Assembly (NCBI RefSeq): GCF_002369955.1
Contig: NZ_AP014564.1
Location: 1,222,951-1,286,950 of the forward strand
DNA from: Ichthyobacterium seriolicida
GTDB taxonomy: Bacteria > Bacteroidota > Bacteroidia > Flavobacteriales > Ichthyobacteriaceae
Length of the DNA stretch: 64,000 nt
Direction: 5' to 3'
A program made the translations under genes and the position numbers. Of the stretch, positions 29,231 through 43,759 are shown piece after piece. Within the stretch, counting starts at the first letter, position 1. Each line of letters starts with the position of its first letter. The notes beneath the pieces are model-generated. The model had not been told where the DNA came from. It ran no database searches and worked only from the letters and a program-made list of their open reading frames with translations.

Positions 29231-29502
29231 TAGTGTCTATTTACACGACCAACTTGATTGAAAACCTCAATGGAAAAATCAGGAAGTATACCAAAAACAA
29301 ATTGTCATTCCCAACTGATGATGCTGTTATGAAATCTACTTTTTTAGCTCTGAGGGAGGCTACAAAAAAATGGTCCAAACCCATACTGAATTGGGGAATA
29401 ATCCTGAATCAATTTTTAACTATTTTTGACGAAAAATTTCGACTATGAATAAAAACAAAAAAATATGTCATTTTTTAGTTACACACTTTACGCGATAGTG
29501 TC
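29231..29502 (+). pseudogene. IS256-family transposase C-terminal remnant with right end
   Basis: The frame [18 protein letters not shown] then [20 protein letters not shown] is the C-terminus of an IS256-type transposase, closely matching the remnant at 20727-21185. A 1-base loss after ATKK changes the last residues. The right end is intact: TTACACACTTTACGCGATAGTGTC, ending at 29502. The left two-thirds of the element are missing; the junction reads TAATAGTGTCTATTTACACG. Confidence 0.8.
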
Positions 29503-29528
29503 TTTAATTTGGAAGTTTGAAAAAAAAT

Positions 29529-30185
29529 ATGGGTTTATTCGATTTTTTAAGAAAGTATAATGTTGTTACTGATGATGTTCTTGAAAAAGAAATTATGGGT
29601 TTATTTGATTTTTTAAGAGGAAAAAAGCATAATATTATTCCTGATGATGTTCTTGAAATAAGTTATAATAATTTAATTGCATCATTTATTGAAGGTAAAC
29701 ATTCAAGTTCATTTAATAGTAATGTATTATTAAAGAAAGGAGAAGTTTTAATTTTTGATATTCCAGGTATTTCATATTGTGAGGAAAAAAGTGTGAAAAT
29801 AAAAGGTAATACTCGAGGTTTTTCAATTAGGTTAACGAAAGGAGTATCATATAATTTTGGACAGTTTGAAGGTGGTGTAGAACAAAAAGTAACCCAATTA
29901 GATAGTGGAATTTTAACATTAACTAGTAAAAGATTAATTTTCTCTGGTAGAGCTGAATCTATTGAATATTCACTTTCAAAAATTATTTCATTAAATCCAT
30001 TAGATAATGGTATAATGATAAATAGAACGGGGAAAACGAAAACGGAATATTTTTTAAATACAACGAATTTGTCAGTTAATATTAAAATTACTCCTTATGA
30101 GAGAGAAGGTTTTAAAGAAGATACAATAGAATGGTCATTAAATGGTAATGAGTTTAAAAAAATAATCCAAAATTTAATCCAATAG
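29529..30185 (+). CDS. PH-like (GRAM-type) domain protein with duplicated N-terminus
   Basis: A 218-residue protein without signal peptide. Residues 1-22 and 23-44 are a direct duplication: MGLFDFLRKYNVVTDDVLEK is followed by MGLFDFLRGKKHNIIPDDVL. The rest has features of a bacterial PH/GRAM-like fold: LLKKGEVLIFDIPG, QLDSGILTLTSKRLIFSG, IEYSLSKIISLNPLDNGIMI, and a C-terminal helix FKKIIQNLIQ. The start could be ATG 29529, ATG 29595 (the second copy) or TTG 29517. PH-like domains of this kind often mediate protein or lipid binding. The function is unknown; its setting is accessory, just after an IS256 end. Confidence 0.65.
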   Translation: MGLFDFLRKYNVVTDDVLEKEIMGLFDFLRGKKHNIIPDDVLEISYNNLIASFIEGKHSSSFNSNVLLKKGEVLIFDIPGISYCEEKSVKIKGNTRGFSIRLTKGVSYNFGQFEGGVEQKVTQLDSGILTLTSKRLIFSGRAESIEYSLSKIISLNPLDNGIMINRTGKTKTEYFLNTTNLSVNIKITPYEREGFKEDTIEWSLNGNEFKKIIQNLIQ

Positions 30186-30331: not shown

Positions 30332-30600
30332 TTATGAGACCTTTTTTCGAAGATTGTGAGCCAAAGCATGTAATCCAAATTCTAATTCTGCTTTTTTAAT
30401 CCCTTTATGTGTAAATCTCTTGAAGTTTCGGTTTGATTTGATATGTCCGAAGACGGGTTCTACATCTGATGTTCTTTTTTTACGTCTATTTTGACCTTCA
30501 TTACTCTTGAGCCTATTACGCATTATATTCTTGTGCCTTTCAAGATGATGGTTGCGTTCTATCTTTCTATTGTACTTTGATTTATGGCAAAGCCCTCGTA
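30332..30600 (-). pseudogene. IS1182-like transposase C-terminal remnant
   Basis: The minus strand encodes about 90 residues: RKIERNHHLERHKNIMRNRL, KKRTSDVEPVFGHIKSNRNF then KRFTHKGIKKAELEFGLHAL and AHNLRKK. The VEPVFGHIK...F..RG..K...E..L...AHN pattern is the C-terminus of IS1182/DDE_Tnp_1_6 transposases. Everything upstream is replaced by an IS982-derived repeat at 30601, whose end supplies the first few in-frame residues. The downstream flank (30265-30317) also occurs at 1271-1325. Confidence 0.7.
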
Positions 30601-30711
30601 ACCTGAGTTCGATTAATAAAATCACTTGAATCCTTTAAATTTATTGGGATTTAAGAGGTTTCTAGTGTAGTTATTGGAATCTTTTTCGATGCTTTTGAGA
30701 CCGATTTAGTC
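30601..30711 (-). repeat. IS982-derived MITE, truncated, reverse orientation
   Basis: It begins ACCTGAGTTCGATTAATAA at 30601 and follows the reverse complement of the 17946-18175 copy (AATCCTTTAAATTTATT, GATTTAAGAGG, GATTTAGTCGAAT). It is cut at about 30711 by IS256 3' sequence. Confidence 0.65.
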
Positions 30712-30851
30712 GAATCAATTTTTAACTATTTTTAACGAAAAATTTCGACTATGAATAAAAACAAAAAAATATGTCATTTTTTATTTACACACTTTAAGGG
30801 ATAGTGTCAAAATATGTCATTTCTTATTTATACACTTTAAGGGATAGTGTC
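30712..30851 (+). repeat. Two tandem IS256 right ends
   Basis: From 30712 the sequence repeats the last part of the IS256 remnant at 29410-29502 and ends ACACACTTTAAGGGATAGTGTC at 30808. A second end, with ATGTCATTTCTTATTTATAC and the same terminal CTTTAAGGGATAGTGTC, finishes at 30851. The restriction island begins directly after. Confidence 0.75.
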
Positions 30852-31078
30852 TCTTCATCGTATCTCATCTCATCCTTGAGTCTATCCATCACTGCGAAGA
30901 CATCATTTCTTCCCAACTTTCCACAAACAATCTCCCAGTCAATGACATCTTCTTTTTCAAGCGATTCCATTTGATTTAAAAGTTTTTTTGCTACTTCAGC
31001 ACCAAAATTATCCACGTTTTCGATTACAGACTTTGCGGATGAATAAGCTATTAAGTATTCGTATACTGTTTTTACTTC
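30824..31078 (-). CDS. Small protein fragment downstream of the anticodon-nuclease gene
   Basis: The frame is open from just after a TAA at about 31079 to a TAA at 30824, 84 codons. It contains VYEYLIAYSSAKSVIENVDN and LLNQMESLEKEDVIDWEIVC then GKLGRNDVFAVMDRLKDEM. There is no ATG; GTG at 31013-31015 is the only plausible start and gives 63 residues. The last ten codons (ETLSLKVYK) are read through the IS256 end, so the true C-terminus was lost when the IS end arrived. It probably follows the ATPase gene in one operon. No family is recognised. Confidence 0.45.
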   Translation of the reverse strand, partial: EVKTVYEYLIAYSSAKSVIENVDNFGAEVAKKLLNQMESLEKEDVIDWEIVCGKLGRNDVFAVMDRLKDEMRYDEETLSLKVYK

Positions 31079-31094
31079 TTAAATCTGAAATGAA

Positions 31095-33383
31095 TTAATT
31101 TTCTTCAATTTTCTTTTTACAATACTCTATTTGACCAGGGAACTGAGAATTGATATGTTCGGTTATTGTCTTGCAAACTTCAACATAATCTTCCTCAGTA
31201 ATGGGGGCTTGTTCAGTTCTCCAACCACCATGAGACAAATCATTAATCAAAGTGTATGATTTTTTATCTTTTGGCAAATTATCATTGATATAATTAGCTA
31301 TACTTTCATCCGAAATATCAACCTTGTCAAATCTCGTCAGTGTTTCTATTATGTGACGAATTGAGTTACCAGTAGTGTGTGTTGGCAAAGATTTCTTACT
31401 TGCTATTGAGTAAACGTCCATCAGATGATGAATATATGGCACTGTTAAGCTTGAATTAAAATCCTTAAGCTTATTATTTCGAAGTAAAAGCTTTTTATCA
31501 ATGATTTTACTAGTAATTAAAATTCGCATAAAATCATTATTGTGAGTAAAAATAATAAAACGTTCATGGTTGATTTTATCCAGAAACTTTTTTACATTAC
31601 GAATAACCTCGCATAATTTGTAAACGTGATAGAAATCCATACTTGATATCGGGTCATCAATTATCAAAAACAAATTCTTATACTCATCCTCCTTAGATAT
31701 CTTCAAGTGGGAGTCTCCCATATAGTAAGCAAATGCAACTATGTTTTTCTCGCCTTCGCTCAAAACATCCTTTGCTTGGTTCTTTTCAAGTAGGTTTTTA
31801 TTGAAAATGAGTCTAAAAGTATTTTCGTCAAGCTGATATTTATCTGCGAAAAAACACTTCAATACTGTGCGGATTGTATCTGCAACCTGGGTTCGCTTAC
31901 TGATCTTTTGCTTCTCTTTGTTTTTGGTTATTTCTGAATTCAACTTAGTCCAATCGTTCTTCAATTTCAGTACATTCTCCAAACTCTCCTTATGAGTACT
32001 AGCCAATTCACGGAAGGCACTCTTACACATATTTTTTCTAGTATCCTTACTCTCTTTACCTATTTCATCCTTCTTCTTATTTATAGTTGTGATTTTCTCA
32101 TTGTTATCCTTGATAACGCCATTTAATTTTAACAATTCCTCTTTCAGTTTGGTTAAATATTCATTCTCAACTATCACAGGTTTATTAATTCCCGATATTT
32201 TCTTCTTGTTATTCTCAATCAACACACCCATTAAGTCCAAAAGAGATGAATTTTTGAAAGATTCAAGAGAAACTTCTTCCATTGATGGTATATATTTCTC
32301 CTTATAATTATTAAATTTTAAAATCCGCTTATTGTTCTCGTTCTCAATATTTGTAAGAGTATTAATGTATTCAGTCAATTGCTCATTGTATTGGGAGAAC
32401 ATTTTAATAGTTTTTGCCTCGCTATCGTTTAAATACGTTGTATAGTCATCAATTAATTTTAATGCTTCGCTTTCCAGGTCTTGTTCGCAAAATGGACACC
32501 TTTTGTTGGAATCAGGGTCGTTAAGCAATTTCATACCGCCTTCAATAAAGCCTTGTTTTCCTTTTAATTTTAGTTTAAAATCCTCTGCAAGAGTACTGAG
32601 TGAGAATTCTTCAGAATTTTTTTGAACTATAGTCTTAATTAAATCGACATCAATCTTCATTTCGTCAACCATATCGATGTTTTCGAGGGTATCTGGAACA
32701 GATTTAATTTTATCGTAATCAATTTTATATTCATCAAACGATTTCTCTACCTTGTGACTGTCTGAATTAAATTCTTTGAGAATAGTATCGTAATTAAGTA
32801 TTCGATACTCTGTAAGCCGCGTAATATCCTTTATTGGGGCTATTTTTTCGGAAATATAACTGCTAATACTATTCCTAAGTTCATCAGCAATTGCGTTACT
32901 TTCTTTCTCAATTGCATTTAACTTTTCCTCTTCATCATGAAGATTGATATTAGCTTCCCCCAGTATAAACCCATCAATCTGTCCATCTTTATCAAAATCT
33001 TTAGAACTGATATTCTGCTCTACGTAGTCTTGATTAAAAGTATGGTACAAGTAGTTAGTATTTGAGATTTCAGGTTTCTCTCCTCTTTTTAATTCAATTG
33101 AAAAATCTTCAACGGTTTCACCTTTGTTATTCGTAATAGAGAATGAAAACTGGGAACTGTTTGAACCTATTGAAATAATTTTATCTGTTTGAGAGTGATC
33201 ATCTTCACCTAATTCGGCTGTTTTAATTTGCTCAGTCAATCTAAAGAGCCTGCTAAGAAATGTTTTTCCGCTGCCATTATTTGCGAATACTCCAATCTTC
33301 ATAGAACCAGAATTAATAGTTCCGCTTAATTCAGATAGTGGAGCAACATTTTTACAATTAATTTTAGTGACTATTTTACCCAT
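31095..33383 (-). CDS. RloC/PrrC-like AAA ATPase with predicted anticodon-nuclease tail
   Basis: A 762-residue ABC/SMC-type ATPase resembling AAA_13 proteins, the group that includes the anticodon nucleases RloC and PrrC. Walker A ANNGSGKT is at residues 34-41. A central coiled-coil region carries a single CPFC (Cys296, Cys299) of zinc-hook type. The signature LSEGEKNIVAFAY (541-553) and Walker B LFLIIDDPISSMD (571-583) follow. The tail contains R676-x3-E680 (SIRHIIETL) and H718 (NDLSHGG), matching the Arg/Glu/His spacing pattern of the PrrC active site. Such proteins cut tRNA when DNA damage or an antirestriction factor is sensed. It lies 3 bases after a truncated McrC gene. ATPase assignment is firm; nuclease activity is inferred. 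Confidence 0.8.
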   Translation of the reverse strand: MGKIVTKINCKNVAPLSELSGTINSGSMKIGVFANNGSGKTFLSRLFRLTEQIKTAELGEDDHSQTDKIISIGSNSSQFSFSITNNKGETVEDFSIELKRGEKPEISNTNYLYHTFNQDYVEQNISSKDFDKDGQIDGFILGEANINLHDEEEKLNAIEKESNAIADELRNSISSYISEKIAPIKDITRLTEYRILNYDTILKEFNSDSHKVEKSFDEYKIDYDKIKSVPDTLENIDMVDEMKIDVDLIKTIVQKNSEEFSLSTLAEDFKLKLKGKQGFIEGGMKLLNDPDSNKRCPFCEQDLESEALKLIDDYTTYLNDSEAKTIKMFSQYNEQLTEYINTLTNIENENNKRILKFNNYKEKYIPSMEEVSLESFKNSSLLDLMGVLIENNKKKISGINKPVIVENEYLTKLKEELLKLNGVIKDNNEKITTINKKKDEIGKESKDTRKNMCKSAFRELASTHKESLENVLKLKNDWTKLNSEITKNKEKQKISKRTQVADTIRTVLKCFFADKYQLDENTFRLIFNKNLLEKNQAKDVLSEGEKNIVAFAYYMGDSHLKISKEDEYKNLFLIIDDPISSMDFYHVYKLCEVIRNVKKFLDKINHERFIIFTHNNDFMRILITSKIIDKKLLLRNNKLKDFNSSLTVPYIHHLMDVYSIASKKSLPTHTTGNSIRHIIETLTRFDKVDISDESIANYINDNLPKDKKSYTLINDLSHGGWRTEQAPITEEDYVEVCKTITEHINSQFPGQIEYCKKKIEEN

Positions 33384-33386
33384 TGT

Positions 33387-33836
33387 TTAGTTATTATAAT
33401 TCTCTATCAATTTGTGTAGCACATCTGACCCGATATTCATATTCAAGGAATTTGAATCATTCAGAACGTTGACAAACCCTATTTTACATTGGTTTTCATC
33501 TGGGTTTGTCCTCCCTTTCCAATATCTACCAAAGATTTCCTCAATATTTACGGAGTTTGGGTATAACAACATACTTTTATTTGCACCCCAATAAAGGTTG
33601 TAGGCATACATTTGTTTTAAATCATCATCGCTAGGTTTTGGATTACTAGCATCTAATACCTTCCACTTAGTATCAACCACATAGGTCTCAGACTTTCCGC
33701 CTTGTTGATGTACTATGATTAGGTCTGGTCTAATGGTTCTATTTTCCCAAAATTTCTGTTTGTTTTGGAAACTAACTTTGATGCCAGGTTGCTTGGTCCT
33801 AACTAACATTCTGTAGATGTACTCTTCCCATGTGTC
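33387..33836 (-). pseudogene. McrC-family restriction subunit, 5'-truncated
   Basis: C-terminal nuclease part of a McrC-type protein (partner of the GTPase McrB in modification-dependent type IV restriction). The frame is open from the IS256 end and begins TWEEYIYRMLVRTKQPGIKV; the PD-(D/E)xK active site is visible as IRPDLIIVH and TYVVDTKWK, followed by DDLKQMYAYNLYWGANKSML and LYP. The N-terminal half and mcrB are missing; an IS256-type end (33837-33861) lies where they would start. An ATG at 33809 could start a 140-residue protein, but without McrB it is unlikely to act as a normal McrBC enzyme. Confidence 0.75.
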
Positions 33837-33861
33837 TTTACATACTTTAAGGGATAGTGTC
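33837..33861 (+). repeat. Solitary IS256-type end truncating mcrC
   Basis: TTTACATACTTTAAGGGATAGTGTC matches the right ends at 30808, 30851 and 43759. It points away from the McrC fragment and marks the right edge of the restriction island; ordinary core sequence follows. Confidence 0.75.
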
Positions 33862-43452: not shown

Positions 43453-43759
43453 GACACTGTCCTAAAAAATGTGTAAACAAGGATTCTGGTTGTTATTTTT
43501 CTATCGAAAAATCCACCGCCTAAGTATTTCTTTTTCTAAAGGTTTCTTTAGGAAAATGTGAGTTTATAGGTATTAAAATAGGAGTGCAAAATCATCCCTA
43601 TTTGCAATAGTCACAGCTGTTTTAGCTGCCTTTTGAATAAAGGCTCTGCTTAGGAATTTAAATCGTTTTAGCTCTCTTTAAGTAGGGCTTCTCGCCAAAA
43701 TAAAGATTAAAAATGAGAAAAATTAAAAGGTATCTTTACACACTTTAAGGGATAGTGTC
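43453..43759. repeat. IS256-derived MITE (307 bp) with 8-bp target duplication
   Basis: It starts GACACTGTCCTAAAAAATGTGTAAAC and ends TTTACACACTTTAAGGGATAGTGTC, imperfect inverted repeats of about 25 bases matching the IS256 ends in the window. TTTAATTT occurs exactly on both sides (43445-43452 and 43760-43767), the 8-base duplication expected of the IS256 family. There is no coding sequence inside. Confidence 0.85.

Follow-up and report, generated by a model that had tools for sequence, protein, structure and literature searches.

In the 64,000-nucleotide stretch of the Ichthyobacterium seriolicida genome considered here (the window), an uninterrupted gene codes for an ABC-ATPase that, by its sequence, is a divergent RloC-like protein and not PrrC proper, and it stands directly behind the truncated end of a type IV restriction gene, mcrC, between the ends of IS256-type insertion sequences. 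The best reading, which we hold to be likely, is that a RloC-like tRNase joined an McrBC operon and is now orphaned; in support of it, the relatives of the ATPase are repeatedly linked to restriction genes, and the junction between mcrC and the ATPase gene displays natural ends. The first-pass annotation had recognised in this block a RloC/PrrC-like nuclease, a truncated McrC and IS256 ends, all of which were recovered in the present analysis, while the conserved operon with McrBC that it also envisaged was not.

The RloC-like ATPase

The ATPase gene occupies positions 31095..33383 on the minus strand, with 762 codons and no internal stop. Its product displays a Walker A motif (GSGKT, residues 37-41), a signature (LSEGE, residues 541-545), a Walker B/D-loop (IIDDPISSMD, residues 574-583) and a linchpin or switch histidine motif (FTHN, residues 612-615). 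A zinc hook, C296-P-F-C299 (residues 296-299, codons at 32487..32498, minus strand), is placed at the tip of a predicted coiled coil, and a putative ribonuclease domain of the HEPN/anticodon-nuclease type would extend from about residue 645 to residue 762 (31095..31451, minus strand), carrying the triad R676-x3-E680-x37-H718, with S717 directly before H718. The Walker lysine, both hook cysteines, R676, E680 and H718 are invariant in the 20 relatives compared, of which 17 are close (47-55% identity; 16 from Bacteroidota and one from Elusimicrobiota) and three belong to alphaproteobacterial plasmids (24-26%); the Arg/Glu/His triad first noticed in a single protein is kept in 20 of 20 homologues. 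Profile searches concur, with matches to Pfam AAA_13 (E=1.2e-35), to the PADLOC PrrC profile over residues 484-751 (E=2.4e-13) and, at full length, to the PADLOC candidate defence family PDC-S06 (model PDLC04898, E=1.5e-295). A search of the sequence against the PDB gave no match, or short spurious ones only, such as ribosomal protein L27, and no homologue was found in phage and viral contigs.

RloC has been defined by the motif R-x3-E-x36-52-(S)H, by a CXXC hook and by a length of 658-897 residues (PMC2610378). Every one of these sequence features is present here, in the spacing of the triad, in the serine that precedes its histidine, in the overall length and in a coiled-coil insert bearing the hook, with long helices predicted at residues 149-181, 321-363 and 409-515, and they are accompanied by the full set of ABC-ATPase motifs. 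PrrC proteins have about 340-416 residues, lack a zinc hook and are linked to type I restriction-modification systems, which sets them apart from this hook-bearing protein whose gene adjoins mcrC. When the profile of the ATPase family was aligned by hhalign with full-length RloC-type AAA_13 proteins (RloC-like AAA_13 proteins of other Bacteroidota, chosen by the published RloC motif), the match covered 642 columns with 100% probability (E=6.4e-43) and the triad fell in matching columns of both (N-x2-R-x3-E ... SH); the match to PrrC-type proteins was weaker (94%, E=1.3e-7), with R676 and E680 still co-aligned. Because of the length of 762 residues, the zinc hook and a profile alignment with RloC-type proteins over nearly the whole length, a RloC-type label is better than a PrrC-type one. 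The nuclease with its hook and triad was thus correctly recognised by the first-pass annotation, and the term 'PrrC-like' is justified by the PrrC profile match and the two co-aligned residues, although RloC fits better. Identity with the RloC-type AAA_13 proteins of this comparison, which were chosen by motif, is only about 16%; since a tree separates the ATPase family and its plasmid relatives from other AAA_13 proteins with full support, we regard them as a distinct RloC-like subfamily.

The AlphaFold2 model (mean pLDDT 79, pTM 0.51) consists of an ABC head, a long coiled coil and an all-helical C-terminus, and its best Foldseek matches are Rad50, cohesin and Lamassu LmuB, together with the ATPases of retron Eco7/Ec78. 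The all-helical C-terminus speaks for the nuclease domain that had been proposed; against it are the moderate quality of this part of the model (pLDDT of 55-85 by block) and the failure of Foldseek to find a separate PDB match for the domain. In this family, the RNase is restrained by the ATPase and the zinc hook; once DNA damage or a failure of restriction has been sensed, cleavage of tRNA halts translation. The I. seriolicida protein would likewise join a Rad50-like ABC-ATPase head and a zinc-hook coiled coil to a C-terminal HEPN RNase; its ATPase part may keep the RNase inactive as long as neither infection nor DNA damage is perceived, and the RNase, once released, would cut tRNA, so that translation would stop.

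The McrC remnant and the borders of the block

The McrC remnant (33387..33835, minus strand) comprises the C-terminal 141 of about 420 residues, with a short native tail, and it has kept its natural stop codon. It matches only positions 218-318 of the 318 of PF10117 (E=4.5e-15) and corresponds to residues 280-420 of an intact McrC of 420 residues, from a genome of the same order, to which it is 69% identical; the nuclease core RPD..VDTKWK is retained and the N-terminal two thirds are gone. Predicted alone, the fragment reaches a pLDDT of 33. It stops 3 bp ahead of the start of the ATPase gene (...AACTAAACAATGGGT), as had been described in the first-pass annotation, and at this junction both genes have natural ends, with no IS sequence between them. 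The I. seriolicida genome holds only this one McrC match, and a search with the McrB of the closest relative as query, run without a positive control, returned no match. With neither an intact mcrB nor an McrC possessing both its N-terminal and its nuclease domains, the remnant cannot form the McrBC complex as it is known: the McrBC half of the block is dead, and McrBC can no longer control the ATPase. The closest McrC relative, that with 69% identity, stands in a plain mcrB-mcrC pair (1016 and 420 residues), after which comes an unrelated gene, on the opposite strand. An origin from a BREX system was considered and dropped, as the McrC of this plain pair is a closer relative than the BREX-embedded McrC proteins of plasmids. 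On plasmids of Runella and Haliscomenobacter, McrBC genes do occur inside BREX operons, where a methylase-type gene and pglZ flank them (L031 7191-8468; L032 7197-8465).

The window contains five copies of a 20-bp IS256-type end, each on the plus strand (29483, 30789, 30832, 33842 and 43740), against 0.01 copies expected by chance, and the types of the ends were assigned by comparison with 25 genomic IS copies. At the McrC border lies a left-end fragment of about 26 bp (33836..33861, minus strand), with its outer edge at 33861 and facing away from mcrC. On the other side a right end (30832..30851, minus strand; outer edge 30851) interrupts a small open frame, and a second right end lies in tandem with it (30789..30808, minus strand), as seen in the genome-wide IS comparison. 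The reading frames at both edges of the block are cut, and the earlier description of the borders is confirmed by these partial ends. The border ends all point the same way, the one next to mcrC being a left end and the two opposite it right ends, and they come from separate elements; a composite IS256 transposon is ruled out, and because of this orientation the block looks as if it had been trimmed by two separate IS events. In an IS256-related rearrangement, mcrB would have been lost together with the 5' two thirds of mcrC, and the ATPase gene, itself spared, would have become an orphan. IS256 transposases are matched 38 times in the genome, for the most part by fragments or by copies with stops; as the ATPase gene has remained whole amid these decayed copies, a point already made in the first-pass annotation, recent orphaning or selection is suggested.

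The neighbourhood of the block is an IS graveyard, with a remnant of a DDE_Tnp_1_6 transposase (30332-30625) and one of an IS256 transposase C-terminus (29233-29448); further away, a solitary IS256-type left end of the kind that borders mcrC lies at 43740-43759. The open frame at 29517-30185 has a self-repeating N-terminus (MGLFDFLRK...VVTDDVLE / MGLFDFLRGK...IIPDDVLE). The small open frame that follows the ATPase gene (30852..31087, minus strand, about 76 codons), cut by the IS end, is of doubtful status. It had been counted as a small gene of the proposed operon; its frame has no start codon before a GTG at 31015 and no relative was found anywhere searched, whether the frame was taken for an antitoxin or for a fragment of hsdR or mcrC, and for these reasons calling it a gene is not supported.

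Restriction genes beside the relatives, and the history of the block

The pairing of McrC with the ATPase is real in I. seriolicida, yet it was found only this once, and the McrC partner is dead. The idea that an operon mcrB-mcrC-ATPase-small gene might be conserved has to be given up: no McrC was found beside any of the 20 relatives fetched, where flanks could be read; no ATPase match was found inside 30 McrC loci taken with 1.5-kb flanks; and in 395 Bacteroidota genomes, where some 60 further McrC matches were compared with the AAA_13 matches by their listed coordinates, not one pair lay close together (AAA_13 matches occur in 76 of these genomes; two candidates were scored per genome, so some may be missed). 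The plain mcrB-mcrC pair of the nearest McrC relative is further evidence against such an operon.

Other restriction genes are met repeatedly. A survey of 396 genomes of the same order revealed one more relative of the ATPase, with 30% identity, within a type I operon hsdM-hsdS-ATPase-hsdR (L136 4419-12773; gene names read from sequence), and among the other relatives one lies behind hsdM-hsdS (L006), one behind a type II restriction enzyme at a distance of 3 bp (L015), one behind an Eco57I-type methylase (L017), one behind Fic (L007) and two beside GmrSD-like and Mrr-like genes (L002, L010). Some stand alone, and most have no restriction gene directly adjoining. These neighbours fit the published observation that RloC/PrrC-type genes are often found in restriction-modification operons and with Fic/Doc-like toxins (PMC3710099), as well as the hsdR relic beside the rloC gene of Geobacillus kaustophilus (PMC2610378). 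A link of RloC or PrrC with McrC genes was not found in the open-access text searched, and we treat the McrC pairing as unreported within that text; that it is new is not proven. Two other settings deserve mention. In Brumimicrobium (L002 7989-12161), a GmrSD_N (DUF262) gene and a HEPN_RiboL-PSP gene come after the relative, possibly forming a defence operon with several RNases, and in plasmids of Maritalea, Roseobacter and Sphingopyxis (L030, L093, L094) the relatives adjoin, in three records of three, a pair made of an SbcCD-like metallophosphoesterase/exonuclease and an SMC-type ATPase.

How the block came about may be understood in several ways. According to the reading that we favour, it would be what is left of a defence operon linked to restriction, in which the ATPase gene formerly stood behind mcrC of a type IV McrBC system, as its relatives stand behind hsdS, a type II enzyme or Fic. 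There is an appreciable chance, somewhat short of even, that the ATPase is instead a stand-alone defence gene which came by chance to lie behind mcrC, in a defence island, without ever acting together with McrBC and with a nuclease independent of it; this would agree with the many relatives that have no adjoining restriction gene, with the presence of close relatives in unrelated hosts beside different neighbours and with the absence of McrC-AAA_13 adjacency elsewhere in the 395 Bacteroidota genomes, but it does not account for two genes on the same strand, spaced by 3 bp and with natural ends, nor for relatives placed again and again tight behind restriction genes. A more specific proposal appears rather unlikely, namely that a McrBC operon had as its third gene a RloC-type tRNase, serving as a back-up when phages defeat modification-dependent restriction, and that half of this system survives in the block. 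It is improbable, too, that McrBC was guarded, the intact complex silencing the ATPase or its blockage by a phage releasing it, as with EcoPrrI and PrrC. Gene order and the 3-bp spacing, the guarding of EcoPrrI by PrrC (PMC12707154) and the one relative inside a type I operon would be in keeping with this arrangement; against it, the instance is single and the ATPase persists without McrBC, when a toxin silenced strictly by McrBC would be intolerable unless it silenced itself, as RloC does, or were not expressed.

The present activity of the gene raises a related matter. No Bacteroidota-type promoter was recognised upstream of the ATPase gene and its expression is therefore uncertain. One might go further and see in the whole block a decaying relic, with a silent ATPase gene, given the loss of the upstream operon, the lack of a recognised promoter and the 38 mostly broken IS256 pieces of the genome; we consider this unlikely, for 762 codons have remained free of stops and every catalytic and ATPase residue has been kept. 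If the ATPase is made, further DNA methylases are possible partners in trans, as the genome encodes at least four N6 DNA methylases. An RNA other than the tRNA anticodon might also be its substrate, since the targets of HEPN RNases are diverse (PMC3710099) and no tested substrate for the PDC-S06 subfamily was found in the literature searched, but we see little likelihood in this, the spacing of the R/E/H triad and the ATPase architecture matching RloC and PrrC specifically.

Comparison with known systems

With PrrC, the tRNA-Lys anticodon nuclease linked to EcoPrrI, the I. seriolicida protein has in common the R-x3-E...H triad and the C-lobe of the ABC-ATPase; PrrC differs in being about half the size, devoid of a zinc hook and bound to a type I system. 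The likeness to McrBC type IV restriction (PF10117) resides in the C-terminal nuclease part of McrC, and the difference in the missing N-terminal domain and mcrB. CoCoNuTs, which derive from McrBC, also bring McrBC genes together with a HEPN RNase (PMC11090510), but there the HEPN domain is found in CnuE, behind helicases, whereas here a predicted ABC-ATPase-HEPN protein follows an ordinary McrC; the main text of that paper makes no mention of RloC or PrrC. PDC-S06, which the ATPase matches at full length, is a computational candidate for single-gene phage defence, for which no mechanism was found in the literature searched, and the direct comparison of residues made here ties it to the RloC mechanism.

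The closest parallel is the RloC of G. kaustophilus (Davidov and Kaufmann 2008, PMC2610378), similar in size, in its split ABC-ATPase, in the CXXC zinc hook of its coiled coil and in the R-x3-E-x37-SH triad. Its gene lies inside an IS4-family transposon, beside the C-terminal half of a broken hsdR (PMC2610378). In I. seriolicida type IV McrBC is added to the restriction systems found beside RloC-like tRNases, and intact mcrB-mcrC-RloC operons, if they exist, would make it possible to test whether tRNA-cutting guards watch modification-dependent restriction as PrrC watches type I. The block repeats the G. kaustophilus setting, in that a RloC gene adjoins a restriction relic near IS sequence, with the difference that the relic is now a type IV mcrC and not hsdR.
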